DNA of 64,000 nucleotides from Flavobacterium aestivum (GTDB taxonomy: Bacteria; Bacteroidota; Bacteroidia; Flavobacteriales; Flavobacteriaceae). Of the stretch, positions 3,344-53,647 are shown piece after piece. The notes below the pieces were generated by a model, which was given only the letters and a program-made list of their open reading frames with translations, was not told where the DNA came from and did not search any database. The DNA lies in contig NZ_CP113977.2 in assembly GCF_026870175.2 (NCBI RefSeq), forward strand, positions 1,426,001 through 1,490,000, in the 5' to 3' direction. Within the stretch, counting starts at the first letter, position 1; every line of letters starts with the position of its first letter. The position numbers and the translations under genes are program-made.

Positions 3344-3535
3344 ATGTTAAAAAACATTTTAAATTTAAAAGGAGCTCAAAAATTAACTGCTAGTGAGCAA
3401 AAAAGTATTAAAGCTGGTGATACAGGTATAAGCTGTGGACCACAAGGGCCTTCATGCGGTCCTGGACAAACTAATAGATGTATTAACGGAAGATGGGTAT
3501 GTACGCCTTCTTGTCCAACATTTCCATACTGTTAA
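3344..3535 (+). CDS. Cys-rich leader peptide 4
   Basis: A 63-residue precursor with the standard leader (MLKNILNLKGAQKLTASEQK, SIKAG). The core has Cys at 31, 38, 46, 53, 57 and 63 and repeats CGP-x3-SCGPGQ-x4-C-x4-WVC. Relative to copies 1 and 2 the leader is almost unchanged while the core has diverged, the pattern expected when the leader serves a common exporter and the core is under diversifying selection. Confidence 0.8.
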   Translation: MLKNILNLKGAQKLTASEQKSIKAGDTGISCGPQGPSCGPGQTNRCINGRWVCTPSCPTFPYC

Positions 3536-4863: not shown

Positions 4864-5763
4864 TTATGCATTTACTGCTTCAACTTTAATGCCTTCGTCA
4901 TTCAACATACTTTTTAGCATATTTTCAATACCGCTTTTTAGTGTAAAAGTAGAAGATGGACATCCGTTACAAGCACCTTGCATCATTACTTTTACTGTTT
5001 TTGAGGATTCGTCGTAAGAATCAAAAAGAATATTACCACCATCCGCAGCTACTGCTGGCTTTACGTATTCTTCTAAAATATTGATAATTTTTTGTGAAGT
5101 TTCGTCTAAAGCATCAAAGGATTCATCTTTTGCTTTTTCATCTTTAACAATAGTCTGAATTAAATTCTCGTCTAAAACAGTTCCTCCATTTTCAATATAC
5201 TGTTTGATGAAAGTTCTTATTTCCAGAGTGATGTCTTGCCATTCGTTAATGTCGTATTTGGTGACAGAAATATAATTTTCATCGATAAAGATTTCTTTTA
5301 CATAAGGAAACTTGAACAATTCTTTCGCCAAAGGAGATGGAGCAGTTTGATCTATGTTTTTGAATTCTATAGCATTTTTTGTCAACATTCTGCTCACTAC
5401 GAATTTTAAAGCGGCAGGATTTGGAGTTGATTCACCATAAACAGTAATAGGTTGCTTTTTTGGTTTGTCTTTATCAACAGTAATTATAACTCCGCCTTTA
5501 TCTACAAATGCCTCAATTTGTTCCGCTACTGCATCTTTTACATCTTCCCATTCTACGATACTAAATCTTTCGATAGCGATAAAATTTCCTGAAATGTAAA
5601 CTGTTTTTACAAATGGTAAGTAAAATAATTGTTGTGCCAATGGAGAGGTCTTGGCTTCGTCTATATTTTTAAATTCAAAACTTTCATTTTGAGTAATAAA
5701 ATCTTGAAATTCAAATTTTAATATGGTTGGATTTTGTGTTTCTTTTATGGTAACTTTTGTCAT
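4864..5763 (-). CDS. NifU-family Fe-S scaffold with two N-terminal Nfu domains
   Basis: Iron-sulfur cluster carrier that delivers [4Fe-4S] clusters to apo-proteins in the cytoplasm. From the ATG at 5763 it has 299 residues. Two tandem Nfu-N-type domains come first (NPTILKFEF-x-DFI... and, about 100 residues later, STPNPAALKFVVSRML), then the C-terminal NifU domain with its metal-binding motif GACNGCPSS (CxxC). The double N-terminal arrangement differs from most bacterial NfuA. A minus-strand TAAATTTG (5788-5781) is the likely -7 box and the gene has its own terminator. The frame extends slightly upstream to 5781, but the ATG at 5763 is preferred. Confidence 0.93.
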   Translation of the reverse strand: MTKVTIKETQNPTILKFEFQDFITQNESFEFKNIDEAKTSPLAQQLFYLPFVKTVYISGNFIAIERFSIVEWEDVKDAVAEQIEAFVDKGGVIITVDKDKPKKQPITVYGESTPNPAALKFVVSRMLTKNAIEFKNIDQTAPSPLAKELFKFPYVKEIFIDENYISVTKYDINEWQDITLEIRTFIKQYIENGGTVLDENLIQTIVKDEKAKDESFDALDETSQKIINILEEYVKPAVAADGGNILFDSYDESSKTVKVMMQGACNGCPSSTFTLKSGIENMLKSMLNDEGIKVEAVNA

Positions 5764-43223: not shown

Positions 43224-44018
43224 ATGACTTACCAAGGAGTACTTTCTAAAATGCAAACCGAGTTTGGAGATCCAATTCAATATTATTTGGTTTTCGAAAA
43301 CAGTTTTTTGAACATGAACCAATTATTGAACAAAGAGCTGGAAATTAATTTTGAGGGGTATCAGTGTTTGAATTGCGGTAAAAAGAAAAAAATATTTCGT
43401 CAAGGATTTTGTTACGAATGTTTCTATTCTAGCCCAGCTGTGGGAGATTGGATTATGAAACCTGAATTGAGTACCGCCCATCTTGATATAGAAGATCGAG
43501 ATTTGGCATATGAGAAGCAAGTACAATTACAGCCCCATATTGTCTATTTGGCATTGTCCAGTGAAGTCAAAGTAGGGGTAACCCGAAAATCCCAAATGCC
43601 GACACGATGGATCGATCAAGGAGCAAGCCAGGCTATATCTATTGTTGAGGTGCCTAATCGTTATTTGGCCGGAATTACTGAGGTGGCGCTAAAGAGTCAC
43701 TATACAGACAAAACCAATTGGCGTAAAATGCTTCAAAATGATATTGTTCATATGGACCTAATAGCCGAAAAACTAAAAGTAGAAAGTTTAATTCCAGCAG
43801 AAGTTCAGGAGTTTTATCATTTGGAAAAAAATGACTTGTACGAAATGCATTTTCCAGTATTGAATTATCCTAAAAAAGTAAGCAGTTTAAGTCTGGATAA
43901 AACAACTCATTATAAAGGGAAACTAACGGGAATAAAAGGGCAATACCTCATTTTTGAAGATGGAACTGTTTTCAATATCCGAAGTTTTGAAGGCTATGTA
44001 GTTCGATTGGAAGTTTAA
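43224..44018 (+). CDS. DUF2797-family protein
   Basis: 264 residues. An N-terminal CxxC pair of a zinc-binding module (YQCLNCGKKKKIFRQGFCYE, then CF) precedes the family core (HIVYLALSSEVKVGVTRKSQ, MPTRWIDQGA) and a C-terminal domain ending LIFEDGTVFNIRSFEGYVVR. The GIY-YIG-like HIVYLALSSEVKVGVTR stretch hints at a nuclease-related fold; function unknown. The 3' end (43890-43987) is identical over 98 bases to a fragment at 50774-50871, and the gene forms the left border of the accessory segment. Confidence 0.88.
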   Translation: MTYQGVLSKMQTEFGDPIQYYLVFENSFLNMNQLLNKELEINFEGYQCLNCGKKKKIFRQGFCYECFYSSPAVGDWIMKPELSTAHLDIEDRDLAYEKQVQLQPHIVYLALSSEVKVGVTRKSQMPTRWIDQGASQAISIVEVPNRYLAGITEVALKSHYTDKTNWRKMLQNDIVHMDLIAEKLKVESLIPAEVQEFYHLEKNDLYEMHFPVLNYPKKVSSLSLDKTTHYKGKLTGIKGQYLIFEDGTVFNIRSFEGYVVRLEV

Positions 44019-44059
44019 AACAATAATTTAAAAAGCATTTACTTCATCAGTTTGTAAAA

Positions 44060-44165
44060 GCTCGTGTGGGCGTGCCACCATAAAGCTATAGGCCCACTTC
44101 TTTATGCTGTCGGGCTGTCCGCGCTACTTCGGTAGCTTGCTTCCATCCCTCACGTGGCATTGCGG
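44060..44165. ncRNA. GC-rich islet, possible structured RNA
   Basis: In an otherwise AT-rich stretch this segment has a perfect UUCG tetraloop hairpin, GCTAC-TTCG-GTAGC (44123-44136), plus complementary blocks GTGGGC/GCCCAC (44066-44071/44092-44097), ATAAAG/CTTTAT (44080-44085/44100-44105) and TGCCAC/GTGGCA (44073-44078/44154-44159). Some pairings cross, so not all can form together. No open frame. A structured RNA or part of a mobile element; strand unknown. Confidence 0.35.
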
Positions 44166-44293
44166 TGTAAAAAGGTATTTTCTAATATCATGGGCAATAT
44201 CAATTTCACAGATAAAATCTAATAAAATGAATAAGGTTCCCTTGTTATTAACCTAAGTTCGATTGTTAAATAGTTGATTTGGAAATAGTTTTG

Positions 44294-44380
44294 GATTCCT
44301 GCAAGGTTTCCAAAACCTTGTAGGGATTGTTGTTTGTGCATCCAAATACCTACAAGGTCAAAAAAAGACCTTGCAGGAAA
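44294..44380. repeat. Palindromic CCTGCAAGGT/ACCTTGTAGG repeat unit
   Basis: Two hairpins in tandem: CCTGCAAGGTTT (44298-44309) with AAACCTTGTAGG (44313-44324), and CCTACAAGGTC (44349-44359) with GACCTTGCAGG (44367-44377). Together they also form one larger inverted repeat. REP-like. Confidence 0.65.
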
Positions 44381-44442
44381 ATCTAGGAATCATAAAGTGC
44401 AAATATTCAATTGATTAAAAAATAATTAATAATCGAACTCAG

Positions 44443-44562
44443 GTTATTAATGATTCGGGACTAAATTAAGCCCATTATTCGGATTTGCCAAAATATTCCA
44501 AATGCAAAACCATCTTAAATTCAGTCCTAAACCCACTATCGCAAAGCGTATGTTAGTAGCCA
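44443..44562 (-). repeat. attC-like hairpin element 1
   Basis: GACTAAATTAAGCCCATTAT with a following CGGATTTGCC is nearly the same as in element 2 (49581-49610); the other arm is AGTCCTAAACCCACTATCGC to GTTAGTAGCC. It follows the stop of the minus-strand small membrane protein gene directly, in the same geometry as element 2 and its gene. Confidence 0.45.
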
Positions 44563-44563
44563 T

Positions 44564-44872
44564 TTATTTAATTATTTCTGCGTCTAAAATTTGACTTAGA
44601 AGTTTTGTTGAAGATTTAGTTTTCTTTTTAAAAGTTATATAGAAAATTACAAACGTAAAAGGAGCTATGAAAGCTAAAAATTTCCACGTAAAAAATTCAT
44701 CAATCGGTTTTATAAACAAAAAAGCTATAAAAGCTAGATTTATAATTAAAAACAATGGAAGTTTCAAATAATTTGGTATTCCAAATTTTAAATTTATTAA
44801 GCAATAATTTTTCACATTTTTCAATTTTACCATTGATTTCAGGACGTAATTGATTTCTTGGGCCAAACTCAA
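44564..44872 (-). CDS. Small two-helix membrane protein (orphan)
   Basis: 102 residues from a TTG at 44872, or 89 from an ATG at 44833. Two hydrophobic helices (LPLFLIINLAFIAFLFI and FLAFIAPFTFVIFYITF) flanked by Lys-rich segments; no family recognised. The absence of a clear ATG at the full length leaves it possible that this is the remnant of a longer gene. The attC-like element 1 begins right after its stop. Confidence 0.45.
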   Translation of the reverse strand: MSLAQEINYVLKSMVKLKNVKNYCLINLKFGIPNYLKLPLFLIINLAFIAFLFIKPIDEFFTWKFLAFIAPFTFVIFYITFKKKTKSSTKLLSQILDAEIIK

Positions 44873-45076
44873 AAGTTGGGTGTATTTGAAATTCAGAAGA
44901 AGTTATTTTCCCAAAACGATAGGGTAAGTGTACGCTCAACTACGTAATAAAATGCTGTTTCAGGATCACGCTCAGCTTCCATAAAATGGCAAAAAAGCAA
45001 AATGCCATCCTTACTCAAAGTTGTTAATAGCTTTATGGTGCTTTACATGGGAGGAGCGGCGGTTGGGTGCTGGGCT

Positions 45077-48000
45077 TTATTCTTTTATTATCTTTCTTAC
45101 TTCAACTATCTTGTCAGTTATCAACTTAAAAAAATAAATGCCACTATTCAAGTTGCTAATATCAACTTGTGTTTTTTTATCTTTTATTTGTTGTTGCATT
45201 ATTTCTTGTCCATTTATATTAAAAATCGTCAAAGTGATTTCTTTGTTCTGGTTGTTATTTTCTATTGTTATACTGTTTGGTGCAGGATTTGGAAAAATAT
45301 TTATGTGGGATTCAGAATTTACTTCATTTATTCCAAGTGTTCCATTTGTTGTATTTACAGTAGCTTTGTCATATTTTATACATCCTTTGTAATCAGTGAT
45401 TTCAACAATATATTCTCCCGCAAGTAGATTAATTGCTGTAATAGTTGTTTGAGAAAATGAATCATTCCAATTGAAAGAATATGGAGGATTACCACCTATT
45501 ACATTTATCGTTGCAGAACCTTCACCAAAACGTGTATTGATATCATCTGGTGTTGTTTTTGTCTGTGTTACGATTTCTGCTGGCTCGGTAATATTTATTG
45601 ATTCTTTAAAATCACAACCATGCGAATCAGTAACTGTAACATCATATGTTGCTGATTTTAGATTAAACAGGTCTTTTGATCTTTGTCCATTATTCCATGA
45701 GTAAATATAGGGTGGAGTTCCATTGGGATATAAAGATATACTTCCATTGTTTAAACCAAAACAAGTAACATTATTTTTATCTACATTTAAAGTAAGTGCG
45801 TCTTTATTGATATAAAAATCATGTTTTATTACGCACTCATTTGAATCTGTAACAGTAACAGAATAGGGACCTTGGCTTAGATTTGTTATAGAAGATGTGC
45901 TTGCGCCAGTATTCCATAAATATATAAAGGGAGCAGTTCCTTGAGTAATAGTAACAGCAGCTGATCCATCATTTGACGGGAAACATGTTTTATTTGATGA
46001 TAGATAACTGGCAGTTAATTGAGATTTTTTGACACTAATAGTGTCATTAATTTTACAACCGTTATTATCTGTGACTGTATACATATATTCCCCAACTGAC
46101 AGATTAGAAATTGACGAATTACTTGTTCCGTTATTCCAATTATAAGTATAGGGAGGATTTCCGTTTGGAATTACATTTATTGAACCATCATTTGCGGAGC
46201 TACAAGAAACATTTTTAATATTTGTTTTGGTTGTAAACCACATACATTGATAGCAATTATTAGATATTTGGGTAATAAAAGCACTATTGCCAAATATTAT
46301 ATCTTTTATGCCATCATTATTGACATCAGCTACTTTCAAGCTATTAAATGAACCCGCATAATTACCATATTTTTTTGTAACGATAAATTGATTAGAATCT
46401 GAATAAATGTAAACAGAACCGTTAGAAGTAAAAATATATTCAGGTTTGCTGTCATTATTTAAATCGGATAATATAATACCATCAATTTTATTATTACTTA
46501 ATTTTAATGATAAAATATTTTGCATATCAACACCATTTAACACTTTAATGTAACCATCGTAAGTTCCGGCTACAATATCTTTTTTACCGTCATTATTTAT
46601 ATCGTATAAATCGATATTAGAATAGTTTGATTCAGTGCTTTTCCATTGTTGATGACTCATCCCTCCGTAAACAGAAATTCTGTCACTACAAATTATAATT
46701 TCTTTTTCACTATCATGATCAATATTATCAATTTTGATGTTTGATGAATATCCGTAACCCATAGATTCAGACGAATATTTTATAGCAAAATTTTCTGGAT
46801 TAACTATGTAATAATTGGAAGAGGTACATACTACAATCTCTTTTTTCCCATCTCCATCAACATCATCTATGTTAAGAATCTTGAACTCAGCAAGATTTTC
46901 GGTACTATATAAATGGGAACTTTTTATTGTTTTAGTAATACCATCAATAATCCATATTTTTCCGGTATATGTTTGTCCGGCAGCCACTATTATTTCTTTG
47001 TTTCCATCATTGTCAATATCTTCAATTTTCACATCATATATTCCAGTCCATACTTGATTAAAAAACGTACCATTGCTTTGCCATTTAATTCTTTTTGTAA
47101 CACCATCAAATATTGTAAGTATTCCGCTTTCATATCCGCTTTTGCTTTCATATGAAATTGTAACTATTTCTTTTATGCCATCTTTATCAATGTCATCGAT
47201 AGCAATGGCATAAAAAGGGCCAACTATATCCATACTTTGCCATTCAATTGAAAGTGTTGCCATATCAGCAACATAAAAATAATCTGCACCAGTAGAGGTC
47301 CATCCGGCACCCCACATAACGTCCAACATTCCATCATTATTTACATCTGCTATATTGATTGCTGTTACACCATGTTCAGGATTTGTAATTTTCCATATTT
47401 CTGTGTTAGTGGTAGAATTGATACAATGAACTTCACCCCATTGACCATCACCATAAATAATCTCGTCAATTCCGTCATTATTAATGTCCTTAAGTAACAA
47501 TGCCTGAATGTCAAGATCGGCATTCCATTCAAATTTTAAACGTTGTGTATTTACATCATAAACATCAATATAGTCCCATGATTTAGCCCTTATTATTTCT
47601 TGCATTCCATCTTTGTCAATGTCTGAAAGTTCAAGCATATAGCCGTAGTCAGAAGAAGCGTTATTGTCAAAAACCCATTTGACAGTAGTAGTAATCCCAT
47701 TATTAACCAAAACTTTTCCAAGTGTAGTAATAATTTCTTTGTCGGAACTTCCGTCAACATTACCGATACTAAATTCATTTGCGCCATAGTTTAGTTCAGC
47801 TTCATTTGAATAATCTAATGCATTATAAATATAAATTTTGTTGTTTGTACTAACAGCAATTTCTTTTAATCCATCATTATCAGCATCATCAAACTCAATA
47901 TCATTAATTTTCTCTGAACTTGGTATTGATATTTCTTTTATAATTGATCTATCAATACAATTTAAAATTTGAAATGTTCCATTTTCAAATCCGATAATAA

Positions 48001-48520
48001 TTTCATAATTGCCATCATTATTAATATCATAAACTTTTATTCGAGTGATATGAGTATCATACATATCACTAGTCCATATTTGTTGATAGTTGTTGTTTAT
48101 TGGGTCAAATTTGAGGATATACCAAAAAGATGCATTATTTGAAATCGCACTACATATTATTTCTGTTTTCCCGTCTTTGTCTAGGTCGTAGGAATTCATT
48201 GAATTTCGTCCTATAGAAGTACCCATAATTGAATATTTCCAATCAGCATTGCAATTACTAATTTTTTTAGCTTCCCCGAAGTTGTTTGCGGATTTATTAG
48301 TAAGTATACCTTTTTTAAATGTCGAGTTATCGTAATTAGCTATTAAATTTTCAGTTTCTTTCTTAGAATAATTGATGCGATTACTGGTATGATCTTCTAT
48401 AATTCTATTGTAAGAATCTCGTTTGACTATTTTTTCATTTTTGTCAAAGTTGTTTTGATTTTGACTTTGAAGATTAATCGTAAATACGATTAAACAAAAT
48501 ATAAAAATATTTTTTTTCAT
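45077..48520 (-). CDS. Secreted FG-GAP/VCBS-repeat protein with four SprB repeats and a T9SS sorting domain
   Basis: 1147 residues. Signal peptide ending NLQSQ, then about 650 residues of FG-GAP/VCBS-type repeats, each with a calcium-binding D-x-D-x-DG-type loop (e.g. NSYDLDKDGKTEIICSA, DINNDGNYEIIIGF, DIDKDGMQEIIRA), as in integrin-like beta-propellers. Then four SprB-type modules with NPPYTYNWNNGTSNSS-like motifs. The C-terminus is a type A T9SS sorting domain (INIFPNPAPNSITIENNN ... SGIYFFKLIT). It would be exported by type IX secretion and displayed on the surface, likely as an adhesin or sugar-binding protein. It lies within the accessory segment and no clear promoter was found. Confidence 0.92.
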   Translation of the reverse strand: MKKNIFIFCLIVFTINLQSQNQNNFDKNEKIVKRDSYNRIIEDHTSNRINYSKKETENLIANYDNSTFKKGILTNKSANNFGEAKKISNCNADWKYSIMGTSIGRNSMNSYDLDKDGKTEIICSAISNNASFWYILKFDPINNNYQQIWTSDMYDTHITRIKVYDINNDGNYEIIIGFENGTFQILNCIDRSIIKEISIPSSEKINDIEFDDADNDGLKEIAVSTNNKIYIYNALDYSNEAELNYGANEFSIGNVDGSSDKEIITTLGKVLVNNGITTTVKWVFDNNASSDYGYMLELSDIDKDGMQEIIRAKSWDYIDVYDVNTQRLKFEWNADLDIQALLLKDINNDGIDEIIYGDGQWGEVHCINSTTNTEIWKITNPEHGVTAINIADVNNDGMLDVMWGAGWTSTGADYFYVADMATLSIEWQSMDIVGPFYAIAIDDIDKDGIKEIVTISYESKSGYESGILTIFDGVTKRIKWQSNGTFFNQVWTGIYDVKIEDIDNDGNKEIIVAAGQTYTGKIWIIDGITKTIKSSHLYSTENLAEFKILNIDDVDGDGKKEIVVCTSSNYYIVNPENFAIKYSSESMGYGYSSNIKIDNIDHDSEKEIIICSDRISVYGGMSHQQWKSTESNYSNIDLYDINNDGKKDIVAGTYDGYIKVLNGVDMQNILSLKLSNNKIDGIILSDLNNDSKPEYIFTSNGSVYIYSDSNQFIVTKKYGNYAGSFNSLKVADVNNDGIKDIIFGNSAFITQISNNCYQCMWFTTKTNIKNVSCSSANDGSINVIPNGNPPYTYNWNNGTSNSSISNLSVGEYMYTVTDNNGCKINDTISVKKSQLTASYLSSNKTCFPSNDGSAAVTITQGTAPFIYLWNTGASTSSITNLSQGPYSVTVTDSNECVIKHDFYINKDALTLNVDKNNVTCFGLNNGSISLYPNGTPPYIYSWNNGQRSKDLFNLKSATYDVTVTDSHGCDFKESINITEPAEIVTQTKTTPDDINTRFGEGSATINVIGGNPPYSFNWNDSFSQTTITAINLLAGEYIVEITDYKGCIKYDKATVNTTNGTLGINEVNSESHINIFPNPAPNSITIENNNQNKEITLTIFNINGQEIMQQQIKDKKTQVDISNLNSGIYFFKLITDKIVEVRKIIKE

Positions 48521-48533
48521 ATAATATAATTGT

Positions 48534-48990
48534 TAAAAAAATCATTCCCATGATGATTTTTTGAATAGTTTCTTAGCCTTGTTTCCTACTAGTGTGTATG
48601 CCTGATAAAATCAGACATATCCACCCTAATTTAGGCAGCTTTGTCTGGCAAAAATACTTTTTATTTTTTAAATAGAATAGATTTCAAATCAGTTCCAGTA
48701 CAGTTTATTGCTTCCGGATTGTTTCCCTAATCGCGATAAGTTGGTACTCGTTGCAAACGAGCAACATAAAGAAATTTGCTTTCCTAAGGTTGCCTAAAAT
48801 TATTGGGTACGCTCCACAAAGTCTCATGACTTTGCGGAGGGGAATCCTTTTGTGGCATGTTTTTAGGATTTGAAATGTTGTGAGATATAATTTTAAATTT
48901 TTGAATGAAACTTCTTTGGCAAATGTGTATTTTTGTTTAAGTCATGGCAAGTTCTAAACAGCTCCAGCCGTACCCAGCCAATTGAGATTG
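48534..48990. repeat. Intergenic cluster of hairpins and the CTCGTTGCAAACGAG repeat
   Basis: Between the FG-GAP gene and the HTH gene lie AAAATCAT/ATGATTTT (about 48537-48561), CAGACA/TGTCTG (about 48612-48647), the 20-base GTACTCGTTGCAAACGAGCA (48744-48763), and CCACAAAGTC/GACTTTGCGG (about 48813-48838). The 20-mer recurs exactly at 50636-50655. No gene is visible in 48521-49056. Confidence 0.55.
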
Positions 48991-49044
48991 TATCATACAA
49001 TTCATCATTGGTATTTTACCAACAAAAATTCCGCACCGATTTAA

Positions 49045-49052
49045 TACCTTTG
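49045..49052 (+). promoter_or_regulatory. -7 element directly upstream of the HTH gene
   Basis: TACCTTTG at 49045-49052 lies only four bases before the ATG at 49057, which predicts a leaderless or nearly leaderless mRNA. No good -33 TTG is seen. Confidence 0.45.
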
Positions 49053-49056
49053 AATT

Positions 49057-49464
49057 ATGAACACAGCAACAAAACCAAAACACATAGGACGCAACATCAG
49101 CCGCATTAGAGAATTGCGTGAAATGAAACAGGAAGCATTAGCAATTGCTTTAGGCGTGAGTCAGCAAACTATTTCGAATATGGAAAACAGCGAAACTATT
49201 GAAGATGAAAAATTACTTGAAGTTGCAAAAGCACTTGGAGTAAATGAAGAGGTTCTCAAAAACTTTTCAGAAGAAGCTGTTTTTAACATTATTGGAAATA
49301 CAGTTAACAACAGCGATAATGGTGCATTGTTTAATTATCAGCCAAGTTTTAATCCTATCGAAAAATTAGTTGAAGTTTTTGAAGAAAAAGGAAAGCTTTA
49401 TGAACGTTTACTTCAAGCTGAAAAAGATAAAGTTGAATATTTAGAGAAACTATTGAAAAAATAG
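49057..49464 (+). CDS. XRE-family helix-turn-helix regulator
   Basis: 135 residues. The N-terminal HTH (about 10-65) reads IGRNISRIRELREMKQEALA then IALGVSQQTISNMENSETIE, a standard XRE/Cro fold. The C-terminal part has a predicted coiled coil (KLVEVFEEKGKLYERLLQAE), probably for dimerisation, and lacks metal or peptidase motifs. Such regulators are common in mobile or toxin-associated loci; its target is unknown. Confidence 0.9.
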   Translation: MNTATKPKHIGRNISRIRELREMKQEALAIALGVSQQTISNMENSETIEDEKLLEVAKALGVNEEVLKNFSEEAVFNIIGNTVNNSDNGALFNYQPSFNPIEKLVEVFEEKGKLYERLLQAEKDKVEYLEKLLKK

Positions 49465-49493
49465 AACTCCTGAATTTTATTATAATTACTAAC

Positions 49494-49530
49494 AAAAAAG
49501 AGACTTCAGTAGCTTGAAGTCTCTTTTTTT
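49494..49530. terminator. Bidirectional terminator between HTH gene and attC-like element 2
   Basis: AAAAAGAGACTTCA pairs with TGAAGTCTCTTTTT, with A6 and T7 flanks, so it can end transcripts from both directions. Confidence 0.8.
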
Positions 49531-49548
49531 GTTTTATGGATGAAATTT

Positions 49549-49707
49549 GTATTAACGTTCCGGGACTACAGCGGGTTTGGGACTAAATTGATCCCATTAT
49601 TCCGATTTGCCACCCGAGCGATAGCGAACAGGCGAAGCAAATCATCCCAAAAAACCAACTTCGCATTAAGTCTTTTGCCCAAATCCGTTGTAGTAGCTGT
49701 TGTGTAC
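49549..49707 (-). repeat. attC-like hairpin element 2
   Basis: Left arm ACGTTCCGGGACTACAGCGG with TTTGGGAC pairs imperfectly with right arm CCCAAATCCGTTGTAGTAGC and TGTTGTGTAC. It ends 9 bases after the stop of the orphan gene 49717-50253 on that gene's transcribed side. Twenty bases (CCCAAATCCGTTGTAGTAGC) are identical to element 3. Confidence 0.55.
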
Positions 49708-49716
49708 AGTACTTTT

Positions 49717-50253
49717 TTAAGACATCGAAATTCCATACACAGCTATTACTGTCCAAATTCCGTAGACTTTTTTTAAAAAATATTTGCTTCCATGTACACT
49801 ATTTGTAAATCTCCAGTAAGTAATAGAAACAACACAATTCTCGTAATTATTGTCAAAAACAGGTTCGCTTATAGAAATTATGTTTTGCCATTTTTTTGTT
49901 TTTTCAAATATTTCTTCGGCGTCTTTATTAGTCAAACATTTTTCGCTATTTATAGAACTAGAGCCGTAATTCAATTCGTTTATTAATTTTAAATTCCAAA
50001 TTCCATTACTGCTTTTTGCAACGTTTGCTTCGATTTCTTTTAGTATGTTTTCAGGGACTTCAAGTCCAGTTTCTTCTTTAAAAATTGTTTGGTCAAAATA
50101 AGTTCTTGATTTTTCACATTGAACATATATTCCAAATGTACCCTTTCCAATTTGGTCATCAATGATTTTTTTAAAAACGTCGGATTCTGAGTTGTTTTGT
50201 GAATAACTCAAAGTTGAAAGTAGTATTAGAAGTATGTTTAAAGTTCTTTTCAT
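49717..50253 (-). CDS. Secreted orphan protein in a cassette-like arrangement
   Basis: 178 residues from the ATG at 50253 (MKRTLNILLILLSTLSYSQ, signal peptide); the frame extends further to 50349 but would run through attC-like element 3. No family recognised. The mature part has features of a small periplasmic domain (GIWNLKLINELNYGSSSINS) with two Cys and a C-terminal YGIWTVIAVYGISMS. It is bracketed on the minus strand by element 3 upstream and element 2 downstream. Confidence 0.7.
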   Translation of the reverse strand: MKRTLNILLILLSTLSYSQNNSESDVFKKIIDDQIGKGTFGIYVQCEKSRTYFDQTIFKEETGLEVPENILKEIEANVAKSSNGIWNLKLINELNYGSSSINSEKCLTNKDAEEIFEKTKKWQNIISISEPVFDNNYENCVVSITYWRFTNSVHGSKYFLKKVYGIWTVIAVYGISMS

Positions 50254-50259
50254 GGTATT

Positions 50260-50400
50260 GTACACAACGTCTTGGCGCTTGGCGAGGTTTTGGGGAATAA
50301 AGATGCGAGATTTTTCGGTTAAACACAAATTTTCCAAACACAAAACCAACTTCCCATTAAGCTAATTGCCCAAATCCGTTGTAGTAGCAGTTATATGCCG
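50260..50400 (-). repeat. attC-like hairpin element 3
   Basis: GTACACAACGTCTTGGCGCT with TGGCGAGG on one side and CCCAAATCCGTTGTAGTAGC with AGTTATATGC on the other, with loop sequence AAAACCAACTT shared with element 2. On the minus strand it ends GTTGTGTAC six bases before the orphan gene's ATG. Confidence 0.55.
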
Positions 50401-50462
50401 TTTCTATTTTACTACTAATAGTTTTATAATTTCAAATAGTCCAGAGGAAGTTAATCCCATCT

Positions 50463-50655
50463 GGCGCTCGTTTGAAACGAGTGCCTACTTACTTCAATCA
50501 ACTAAATAAAGCATTTGCAACGCGGCTTATATAAATAGATTACTATGAAGGTTCTACAATCTCCCGCTAATGCAACGGCTTATGTTTTAGTTACCCGCGC
50601 TGCAAACGCTACAATTTGTCTTTTAATTTAAGTGAGTACTCGTTGCAAACGAGCA
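50463..50655. repeat. REP-like CTCGTTT/AAACGAG palindromes
   Basis: GGCGCTCGTTTGAAACGAGT (50463-50482) is a near-palindrome; the exact 20-mer GTACTCGTTGCAAACGAGCA at 50636-50655 matches 48744-48763. The DUF2797 fragment begins one base after it. This fills the otherwise gene-free 50401-50656. Confidence 0.6.
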
Positions 50656-50656
50656 T

Positions 50657-50902
50657 CAGAAAGTGGCTGATTTGATTCCGATGGAAACCCGCGAGTATTT
50701 TGAAATTACCAAAGCTGATTTGTATGAAATGCACTATCCCGTTTTGAATTACCCTAAAAAAGTAAACAGTTTGAGTCTGGATAAAACAACTCATTATAAA
50801 GGGAAACTAACGGGAATAAAAGGGCAATACCTCATTTTTGAAGATGGAACTGTTTTCAATATCCGAAGTTTCGAGGGATATGTAGTTCGATTGGAACTCT
50901 AA
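50657..50902 (+). pseudogene. 3' fragment of a second DUF2797 gene
   Basis: About 80 codons (KVADLIPMETREYF... to SFEGYVVRLEL) that match the last third of the intact DUF2797 protein. The 98 bases 50774-50871 are identical to 43890-43987, while codons on either side differ at silent and coding positions. There is no upstream part: homology begins abruptly after the CTCGTTGCAAACGAG repeat. The GTG at 50663 could initiate, but this is most likely a non-functional remnant. Confidence 0.8.
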
Positions 50903-50956
50903 GTTTCAGACTTACTAAGATTCTTAGCAACTCAGTCTTTTTTTTTGACTATTAAA

Positions 50957-50998
50957 TAAAAAAACAAACCCGACAGATTTTAAAAACCTGTCGGGTTT
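50957..50998 (-). terminator. Terminator of the AsmA-family gene
   Basis: AAACCCGACAG (50966-50976) pairs with CTGTCGGGTTT (50988-50998); on the minus strand it continues into a T-rich run. Confidence 0.78.
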
Positions 50999-51046
50999 CT
51001 AATATTACTTAGAATCTAAGAAACTTAGTCACTTAAGGCCTTAATC

Positions 51047-53647
51047 TTATGGAGTTGTTTTCTTTTTAAACAGTCCGTTGAGTAAATCACCAGCTTTCTT
51101 TTTAATATCTTCTTTCTGAGCATTGGTTTTAGTGGTGTCGGCATCAGTTTTCTTACCACTATTCAGCAATTTATCCAATTCCGAAGTTCCTTTTTTGACT
51201 AGTTTATCGGATTGCTGTTTGGCCAATTGCATTGTGAGGTTAGTCAACACCGTTTTAATATCCGATGAAATTTTAGGATTACTAAACGTTCCTGTCATTA
51301 ATGCTGTTACTGGAATATTCTCGAATTTAGCAGCATCACTCGGTGACATTTTCGATATGTAAGCGTTGGCTTCCTTACCTAAGTATTTGGCTGGGACATT
51401 AAACTTGATGTTGTAATCCATATTTTGGTCAAAACCATGAGTACCACCTACAACAGCTTTGATATCTTGGTATTTTATCTCGAATGGTTTTACATTTACT
51501 TTACCATTTTCAAAAGTAAGAGCTGCTTTGATATCATTAAGATTTACTTTATTCAAATCAATAAATTTCAAATTTGAGCTCAATGCTTTTAGCATCGTCG
51601 AGCTATTAGGACTTACGGTAGTAGAAAGCAATTGTCCAATCAAATCACCCGAAAGAGTTTTTAAATCAGGAGTCATTTCTGTAGCATTCAGGTTTCCATT
51701 CAATTTGATGTTGGTATTGATTTTTCCATTGACAACACCGGCAATTGGAGCTATTTTTTTCAACATATCCAATTGAGTGAAACTTTGTTGAATGTCAACT
51801 TGGTTTAGGTTTAAATTCATATCAAATACCGGTGTTTTAGCTTTGGTAGAAACAGATCCACTAGCACCAATAGTTCCTCCAAAAATAGATGTTTTTACAT
51901 TTTCTAAAGTTACTTTCTCGTCTTTGATAATCATTTTCCCTGAAACATCTTTCAGTGTTAAGTTATCATACAAAACCGTATTGGCTTTTGCGGTAAGCGA
52001 ACAATTTAGGAAAGCGGGAATCTTCAAAGGTTCTGATTTCTTAGCTTTCGCAGTAGTGGCTTCGGCTTTTCCGGCAGGAGCAGAACTGTTAGTCATAAAA
52101 TCATCAACTGCCAATTGATTAGAAGTCATATTGAAATTTCCTTTTAGCTCTTGTTTTCTAAACATAAAGCCATAAAAATTATCTAAAACCCCAGTTACGC
52201 TAAGATCACTTTTCCCGGTTTTAGCATTGAATTGTTTCAAATGCACTTGGCTAGGGTTGAATTGAACCAAAGCTGAGCTAATAATCATGTTTTTTCCATT
52301 GGCATCAGCATAATTAAATCCTGTTAAACCAATAGTTCCGGCATTATTGATGTTTTGGTACTGACTTTTTTCTACAGAGGCCATGTCAAATTTGGTTGTC
52401 ACATCCGCTTTCAAAATTCCGGTAAGTGGTTTGTCTAGTTTTATAGGATACGCTTTAGAAAGGTTGGCTAAATTGATAGTTCCTTTTAGGGCAGCATCAA
52501 CTAATGCATTAGTGCTTATGTTTCTTATGTTAGCTTTGGCATTAAAAATGTCTTGGTCTATTTTGAAAGAGAGTTTGTCCAGATTGACATAAGTGTCATT
52601 CATTATACCTGTTTCGTTTACAATTTTAGTATCGATTACAATACTTTGAACTGATTTTGGTAAGTTCGGATATTGGAAAGAACCGTTATTGGAAGCTATT
52701 GCAATGTTGAATTTAGGAATAGTGGTATCTGTAAGCATACCTTTGGCAAAACCTTTAACTGTAAAGTCTCCGGTAGTTTTTACGCCCTCCAAACTCGAAG
52801 AGTAAACAGCAGGAATTAAACCTAAAAAGTTTTTGAATGAGGAAGTTGGTGTTTTGAATTTCAAATCATACACTTGTCCTGCATCTACCATTTGAATAAA
52901 ACCATCAAATTCTAACGGTAATTGATTGATCAATGCTTTATTCTCTTTAAAAGTGTATTTGCTTTTGTCTAAATCAATTCCCAAAATGGCATCCAATGAT
53001 AATGAAACATTCTTCATATAATTGATCTTGCCCATATCAAGCGATATTTTAGCTGTCGATTTGGTGTCTAAATCTAATTTTGATGCATTGAAATCACCTT
53101 TACCTTCATGGTTTAAGCTGTCAATAATCATTCTTACTTGTGAGGCTTCGTCAAAATATTGAAACTTGAAATTCTCAACTTGATATTTCTGGATTTTCAA
53201 TAGCATTGGGCTTTTTTTTCCTTCCTCTTCAGGTTTGTTTTCTTTTAAGGCAATGTCAAAATTTCCTATTCCATCTTTATTAAAAATAATATTGATAAAA
53301 CCGTTTTTTGAAGTGATTCCTTCAATTTGCATGGCTTCTCCTTTATCTTTAAATAATTCTTTGATAGACATGTTTAAGTTCAATTCGCCCAAAGAAACCA
53401 AAGTGTCTCCTTCAAAAGGAGCTTTGTTGATAATCAATAATTTATCTAGTGTTACTGTTGCTTTAGGGAAATTTTTGAATAAACTTAGATCGGCATCCGA
53501 AAAGGAAACTTTGGCGTCTACTTTTTCGTTGATTGCTTCGGTAATTTTGGCTTTTATTTGATCTTTAAAGAAATACGGAATGGCGAATAAGGAAGCAACG
53601 AGTACTATTAATACGATTCCAACGATTTTTAAAATTTTCTTAGGCAT
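51047..53647 (-). CDS. AsmA-family inner-membrane-anchored periplasmic protein
   Basis: 866 residues. A single N-terminal membrane helix (IVGIVLIVLVASLFAIPYFF) anchors a very large periplasmic part with the opening KAKITEAINEKVDAKVSFSD, the DUF748/AsmA pattern repeats, and a C-terminal AsmA domain (KLNGNLNATEMTPDLKTLSG). AsmA-like proteins form lipid-channel-like bridges between membranes and affect outer-membrane lipid balance. The tail is Lys/Asp-rich (GKKTDADTTKTNAQKEDIKK). Monocistronic with its own terminator; minus-strand TATTTTTG at 53684-53677 may be the -7 box. Confidence 0.93.
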   Translation of the reverse strand: MPKKILKIVGIVLIVLVASLFAIPYFFKDQIKAKITEAINEKVDAKVSFSDADLSLFKNFPKATVTLDKLLIINKAPFEGDTLVSLGELNLNMSIKELFKDKGEAMQIEGITSKNGFINIIFNKDGIGNFDIALKENKPEEEGKKSPMLLKIQKYQVENFKFQYFDEASQVRMIIDSLNHEGKGDFNASKLDLDTKSTAKISLDMGKINYMKNVSLSLDAILGIDLDKSKYTFKENKALINQLPLEFDGFIQMVDAGQVYDLKFKTPTSSFKNFLGLIPAVYSSSLEGVKTTGDFTVKGFAKGMLTDTTIPKFNIAIASNNGSFQYPNLPKSVQSIVIDTKIVNETGIMNDTYVNLDKLSFKIDQDIFNAKANIRNISTNALVDAALKGTINLANLSKAYPIKLDKPLTGILKADVTTKFDMASVEKSQYQNINNAGTIGLTGFNYADANGKNMIISSALVQFNPSQVHLKQFNAKTGKSDLSVTGVLDNFYGFMFRKQELKGNFNMTSNQLAVDDFMTNSSAPAGKAEATTAKAKKSEPLKIPAFLNCSLTAKANTVLYDNLTLKDVSGKMIIKDEKVTLENVKTSIFGGTIGASGSVSTKAKTPVFDMNLNLNQVDIQQSFTQLDMLKKIAPIAGVVNGKINTNIKLNGNLNATEMTPDLKTLSGDLIGQLLSTTVSPNSSTMLKALSSNLKFIDLNKVNLNDIKAALTFENGKVNVKPFEIKYQDIKAVVGGTHGFDQNMDYNIKFNVPAKYLGKEANAYISKMSPSDAAKFENIPVTALMTGTFSNPKISSDIKTVLTNLTMQLAKQQSDKLVKKGTSELDKLLNSGKKTDADTTKTNAQKEDIKKKAGDLLNGLFKKKTTP

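Follow-up and report, generated by a model that had tools for sequence, protein, structure and literature searches.

Chromosomal integrons built on IntI and attC, together with clusters of attC sites lacking integron-integrases (CALINs), share several features with the system described below: they consist of cassette arrays in which each cassette ends in a folded site, they carry attI beside the integrase gene and GTT and AAC ends that pair within a cassette, and CALINs are site clusters without an integrase (PMC9024848, PMC9668308). One survey lists a single Bacteroidetes species as having a complete integron (PMC9024848), and integrons or intI genes have been reported in Bacteroidetes or Bacteroidota in two other papers (PMC2426708, PMC8618304). 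We found no description of arrays like those below in this group in open PubMed Central text; preprints and most subscription papers were outside this scope, so an earlier description is possible. We analyzed a 64,000-nt stretch of the Flavobacterium aestivum genome (contig NZ_CP113977.2, positions 1,426,001 to 1,490,000 of the forward strand; hereafter the window, in which positions are given unless genome or locus positions are named) carrying three imperfect minus-strand palindromes at 44443..44563 (element 1), 49554..49701 (element 2), and 50266..50392 (element 3). An initial annotation had read these as attC-like hairpins in a cassette-like array without a visible integrase, and comparison with the rest of the genome and with relatives makes it very probable that they are attC-like sites of a gene-cassette system working like a chromosomal integron, though not the classical IntI/attC system.

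Element 2 matched 45 places in the 4.58-Mb genome by blastn, many of them partial, so the elements are not the product of chance. When the window and 13 genome regions were scanned with a site profile (E<0.01, split matches merged by hand), 38 sites were identified in this genome, the three window elements included, co-oriented inside each array, and many copies lie immediately 3' of unrelated genes, as the cassette reading had anticipated. One array, at 2171-2179 kb of the genome, has eight sites and seven gaps, four holding one main minus-strand gene and three holding two. In gene orientation an intact site reads ...NNNNNNYAAC, stem-loop, GTTRNNNNNNA..., and the ends of the gene unit form a cassette-specific inverted repeat, GTTRNNNNNNA...NNNNNNYAAC. 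Both ends were located for 38 cassettes (15 from this genome and 23 from relatives) out of 85 sites found, and in these the 3' box and the next site's 5' box around one gene were complementary at a mean of 4.53 of 6 variable positions, compared with 2.35 after permutation (a mean this high was reached in 0 of 10,000 permutations) and with 2.29 when both flanks of a single site were paired, as expected if both ends derive from one circular molecule. In 36 of these 38 cassettes the longest open reading frame (ORF) has the orientation of the array, with a median of 16 nt between its stop and AAC, and the same was true of 108 of 117 cassettes in another set; the loci thus have the one-direction organization of gene plus folded site seen in integron arrays.

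Site length was nearly fixed, at 114-124 nt in 111 of 140 sites as against 5 of 31 in the control. When the 111 were reduced to 60 non-redundant sites, stem positions showed up to four pair types (at position 12, TA in 24, GC in 14, CG in 11, and AT in 9), so that structure is conserved beyond sequence in this set, which was chosen partly by stem score. The sites for these length and stem counts were picked by end and stem scores, and the adenines at site position 18 and start position 11 were not criteria. The A at position 18 was present in 59 of 60 non-redundant sites, with C opposite in 43, and the A at start position 11 in all 121 cassettes of a separate tally, with C opposite in 101. Such A.C mismatches on the top strand are G.T pairs on the bottom strand, and when 29 of the 38 cassettes were modelled as circles, folding favored the bottom strand in 22 (p 0.007). 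The asymmetry of A.C and G.T, combined with the conserved mismatched A, possibly acts as a strand code. The classical core consensus, RYYYAAC/GTTRRRY, fit only 4 of 121 starts and the same number of ends, with GTTR present in 121 of 121, so these sites depart from the classical pattern and the initial annotation was right to doubt its core motifs. RNAalifold returned only 5 pairs from 15 aligned sites, so the site model used here (R1) is nearly a sequence profile. Some sites break off at profile position 117, next to 333-aa ORFs of IS110-family transposases (3392-3504 and 5646-5761 in locus L111, 12038-12154 in L112).

The site profile matched 77 of the 150 genomes of the genus, and the IntI model gave nothing above its cut-off in the same 150. 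Its sub-threshold matches include 347-aa tyrosine recombinases, several of which adjoin arrays and are directed towards them. In these relatives an attI-like site lies ~90-120 nt past the stop of the recombinase at the array head, and the first cassette begins there, at 100-102 nt as read directly in five of seven loci (L110, L111, L113, L123, and L126) and at 100-101 nt in L112 and L114, as settled in an analysis of 53 loci. Among these 53 (one gene counted twice, as L115/L166), a TATA...GTT motif was present in 44, most with a visible inverted repeat, placing attI beside the recombinase gene as in integrons; nine were without it by the pattern used. A complementary end matching at 9-10 of 10 positions followed downstream in 36 of the 44, where shuffled targets mostly reached ~7-8 of 10, making a match of 9 weak by itself and one of 10 better. 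The attI inverted repeat varies by species (GTCAGAC, TAGCG, CGAAG, CATAC, and ATGGC types) around a conserved core, and this variation possibly co-changes with the N-terminal part of the recombinase.

Against the IntI model, whose cut-off is 265 bits, the 347-aa recombinases reached 198-211 bits, compared with 440-496 bits for four IntI-like proteins from other phyla. The XerA model (NF040815, cut-off 220 bits) gave 219.9, 218.3, and 230.8, with further scores of 220.8 and 196.3. An alignment of the recombinase profile with IntI4 (2a3v) passes over residues 183-239 of the latter, and the span from KGxKxR to HxLRH, measurable in 156 of 170 proteins, was 63-74 residues in 147 proteins (other recombinases included) versus 106-111 in nine IntIs, so the additional domain specific to IntI is missing from the recombinase. 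A quick tree of 85 rows grouped the nine IntIs and one unmeasured protein in a clade with support of 99, and most Bacteroidota proteins with one Spirochaetota metagenome-assembled genome (MAG) in a second clade of 46 rows with moderate support of 86. Proteins of the G147/G059 type (named after their genomes) branched separately yet have arrays, so arrays of this kind may be served by two or more lineages other than IntI. The structure model of the recombinase (predicted local distance difference test score [pLDDT] 81, predicted template modelling score 0.55) was nearest Xer proteins, followed by others including IntI4, with a high global root-mean-square deviation; its N-terminal 70 residues folded alone (pLDDT 78) had no PDB match at E<=0.001, which is not proof of a new fold.

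Among sampled genomes, 121 of 199 from the taxonomic family and 93 of 296 from the phylum carry a member of the recombinase family (E<=1e-60), with arrays demonstrated for only part of them. We applied a strict test that combined end pairing, stem, site length of 110-126, and A at position 11, here a criterion. It was positive for 51 of 101 recombinase loci (at least 280 bits and at least 700 nt downstream; some duplicated: L115/L166, L157/L167, L160/L249, and L178/L261), for 3 of 101 reversed controls, and for 2 of 42 loci of other recombinases, one of which (L165) is the locus of genome G004 with a recombinase remnant. A looser chain test found at least two cassettes in 31 real loci versus 2 reversed controls. 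Named positives were Algoriphagus and Cyclobacterium (Cyclobacteriaceae), Algibacter and Seonamhaeicola (Flavobacteriaceae), and Rufibacter (Hymenobacteraceae), so at least three named families of Bacteroidota have arrays behind recombinases of this kind. We consider it likely that these are a second integron lineage across Bacteroidota, with recombinases outside the IntI family, sites of nearly fixed length (~118 nt), a possible strand code, long cassette-specific end boxes, and a downstream attI, either convergent or in a state that precedes gain of the extra domain by IntI. The Spirochaetota MAG (L194), tried as an array carrier, was positive in loose tests and failed the strict one. Two Chryseobacterium plasmids (L311 and L312; NZ_CP041688.1 and NZ_CP094530.1) carry the recombinase at 67.7% and 67.4% identity, with one cassette by the chain test in one and none in the other; one of these proteins is annotated as a 'site-specific tyrosine recombinase/integron integrase'. 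Partial recombinase matches also occurred in 12 phage records. Among 118 array proteins, matches were obtained to 78 Pfam and 61 PADLOC families, and the first 25 families of each list include acetyltransferases, trypsin-like peptidases, restriction enzymes, AbiU, PrrC, TIR, and others, mostly as single members.

Cassettes were also found in more than one place. A 1230-bp cassette in genome G053 and a 445-bp cassette in G117 each occur twice at 100% identity, at attI and behind an attC, with ends exactly at GTT and unrelated flanks. Three F. aestivum cassettes have counterparts in G117, G120, and G004 at 88.6-89.5% identity; outside the shared blocks identity was ~35-60% per 50-nt step, with a few higher steps near the edges, one of them 78%. 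In the two shared cassettes whose left edges were aligned, homology begins at AACGTT (G120) and GTT (G004), and the G004 copy follows an attI-like sequence whereas its F. aestivum counterpart follows an attC. For the 178-aa gene beside element 2, G068 carries a homologue of 63-64% identity. It too is a cassette, bounded by identical boxes (GTTGTGTACAAT...ACTGTACACAAC), and its array lies near a recombinase gene interrupted by an in-frame stop. Cassette ends were looked for and not found around the homologues in G100 and G116, which may show the gene before capture. A duplicated 323-bp cassette (L110 reverse-strand 4668 and 15071; L144) has no long ORF, its longest being 46 codons; its start was also found at attI in G074, and it might supply a promoter.

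We propose that the mobile unit would consist of GTTRNNNNNNA, a leader, usually one ORF, NNNNNNYAAC, and the folded site of ~118 nt, and that in a free circle the complementary end boxes would pair and close the stem. A tyrosine recombinase of a Bacteroidota family would bind the circular cassette on a single folded strand. This would most likely be the bottom one, on which the conserved A.C mismatches are replaced by G.T pairs. The enzyme would then recombine the cassette within GTT, either into the attI that lies ~100 nt past its own gene or into another attC, and cassettes would accumulate behind the recombinase gene in its direction. Comparisons among genomes show the unit and its boundaries, where attI lies, the single direction of the arrays, the pairing of cassette ends, the variation in stem pairs, and the presence of identical cassettes at two sites; from these we infer catalysis by the 347-aa recombinase, the circular intermediate, the single-strand substrate, and the choice of strand.

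The F. aestivum genome itself contained no IntI above cut-off, and its best intact match to the recombinase family, at 5.9e-39, is in the Xer range. At the array head at genome position 3954238, a recombinase tail (...SQKIKSPLDYL) precedes an attI by 99 nt from its stop; at 2179324 a second tail (...IISPLDNL) lies 150 nt before an attI whose core is in common with G059; and at 3623488 an attI-like site stands without a recombinase. The absence of an integrase noted in the initial annotation thus stands, and is explained by a recombinase of another kind that left only decayed tails; the arrays of this genome are fossils or rely on an enzyme from elsewhere. The first unit behind the attI remnant at 3954238 (L060 from 4238) encodes the start of a possibly TIR-like protein.

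Several observations weigh against the integron-like reading. Folded singly, the three window elements showed no gain over shuffles (z -1.23 to +0.52), which corrects their initial description as hairpins: the arms that pair over the greatest length sit at the two cassette ends, and only element 2 keeps a clear stem. The bottom-strand preference, at 22 of 29, is not universal. The recombinase tails are short (tblastn E of 0.6 and 0.008) and were identified mainly by their position before attI. Many genomes of the genus have sites but no 347-aa recombinase, and the link between the two is modest: among the 150, family members scoring at least 450 bits occur in 53, of which 34 have the R1 site type, versus 43 of the 97 others (p 0.026, from genome lists compiled by hand). 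Fifty of the 101 recombinase loci failed the strict test, partly from early contig ends, and the looser chain test found at least one cassette in 29 of 101 reversed controls next to 59 of 101 real loci.

One rival explanation accepts the cassettes but assigns their movement to a different tyrosine recombinase, either the host Xer proteins or the ~320-aa recombinases present in some arrays, with the 347-aa gene a mere neighbor; in its favor, this genome has 38 sites, other recombinases, and no intact 347-aa gene, and some site-rich genomes are without that gene. We regard it as improbable, given the fixed spacing between attI and the stop of the 347-aa gene, the same array logic behind divergent members of its family, the rarity of strict positives (2 of 42) at other recombinases, and the decayed tails of the 347-aa kind at this genome's own array heads. 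Still less credible is that the sites are ordinary attC remnants of a classical integron that lost IntI, that is, a CALIN. Integron logic runs throughout the system, and the integrase-free arrays of this genome resemble CALINs, described as at least two clustered attC sites without an integrase, though the sites here are not classical attC; no IntI passed the cut-off in the 150 genus genomes, however, the core consensus was found in 4 of 121 cassettes, and a different recombinase stands at the array heads. The initial annotation had also named an unrelated palindromic mobile family, which would here be miniature inverted-repeat transposable elements or elements like repetitive extragenic palindromes, inserting near gene ends. 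The elements are repeated imperfect palindromes, and one small palindromic repeat is inserted in some sites, but each array has a single orientation, the ends that match are those around a gene, not those around an element, the shared unit is gene plus site, the first position is linked to the recombinase, and whole cassettes are duplicated with GTT ends, which leaves this explanation next to no credence.

Within the window, an attC-like system of this kind is preserved as a fragment of a decayed array, with one intact cassette and two damaged sites. The intact cassette spans 570 bp (50268 to 49699, minus strand), from the start box GTTGTGTACAAT (50257..50268) to the end box ACTGTACACAAC (49699..49710), complementary to the start box except at the usual position 11. 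The motifs GTACACAAC and GTTGTGTAC form its two ends; they are exact inverses, as first reported, and bound the 178-aa gene and not a single element. This gene (49717..50253, minus strand) was described as an orphan, which is contradicted by 87 matching database proteins, the 178-aa protein itself counted; it matched 0 Pfam and 0 PADLOC families, and its N-terminus suggests that the product is likely secreted. Its site, element 2, runs from AAC to GTT and is a full-length profile match of 155.9 bits. A small palindromic repeat lies in the loop of this site (49611..49639, minus strand), where blastn query positions 72-104 match alone at several places; the repeat, ~30 nt long, is in the loops of many sites of the genome and is also solitary, for example at genome positions 671365, 4326645, and 3477548.

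Element 3 matches only profile positions 1-67, its 3' half being degenerate, and would be the site of a lost upstream cassette whose matching start box was not found within 4.5 kb. Element 1, a decayed site that has lost its outer 3' arm, matches positions 23-131, and no start box matching it was found within the window; the 102-aa ORF that ends at it (44564..44872, minus strand) is possibly a remnant of a cassette gene. The gene-to-element distances given initially were accurate (stops at 44564 and 49717, ATG of the second gene at 50253), as were the shared blocks: CCCAAATCCGTTGTAGTAGC occurs exactly twice, at 49678 and 50369, with 0 expected in shuffles at up to 3 mismatches, and the GACTAAATT..CCCATTAT..ATTTGCC block is 89% identical between 44454-44490 and 49576-49612. 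The interval 44566-49553, with a 1147-aa ORF bearing SprB and FG-GAP repeats and a plus-strand helix-turn-helix gene, is not a single cassette. A 192-bp direct repeat of 92% identity (43827-44018 and 50711-50902) brackets the whole region and is the 3' end of the gene at 43224-44018. A scan of 43800-51200 against Rfam gave a single match, far under threshold.

The cassette-like reading first proposed is supported by co-oriented arrays 3' of unrelated genes, end pairing, an attI-like site and recombinase in relatives, and identical cassettes, and the finding is correct and of wider extent than first described. If it is true, genes can be captured as cassettes without the domain specific to IntI, Bacteroidota commonly carry integron-like arrays, and how integrons arose and what underlies the choice of strand become directly testable; software requiring the IntI domain should miss these arrays.

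Compared with known systems, the arrays are integron-like yet fail two classical tests, the IntI domain and the core consensus. In contrast to chromosomal integrons, they lack the former and do not fit the latter, and they have end boxes of at least 10 bp, an invariant A at position 11, and sites mostly of ~118 nt. In Treponema integrons (PMC3607928), intI is transcribed towards attI and the integrase is called IntI, whereas the recombinase here falls outside the IntI clade. Relative to XerA, XerC, and XerD (PDB 5hxy, 4a8e, and 1a0p), it has an extra N-terminal part of ~70 residues, stands at cassette arrays, and scores below the XerC and XerD cut-offs. IS1111/IS110 elements that target attC (PMC11187229) resemble the IS110-family ORFs beside sites cut at position 117 in L111 and L112, but are invaders of sites and not movers of cassettes, the role that the 347-aa recombinase would have in the system proposed here.

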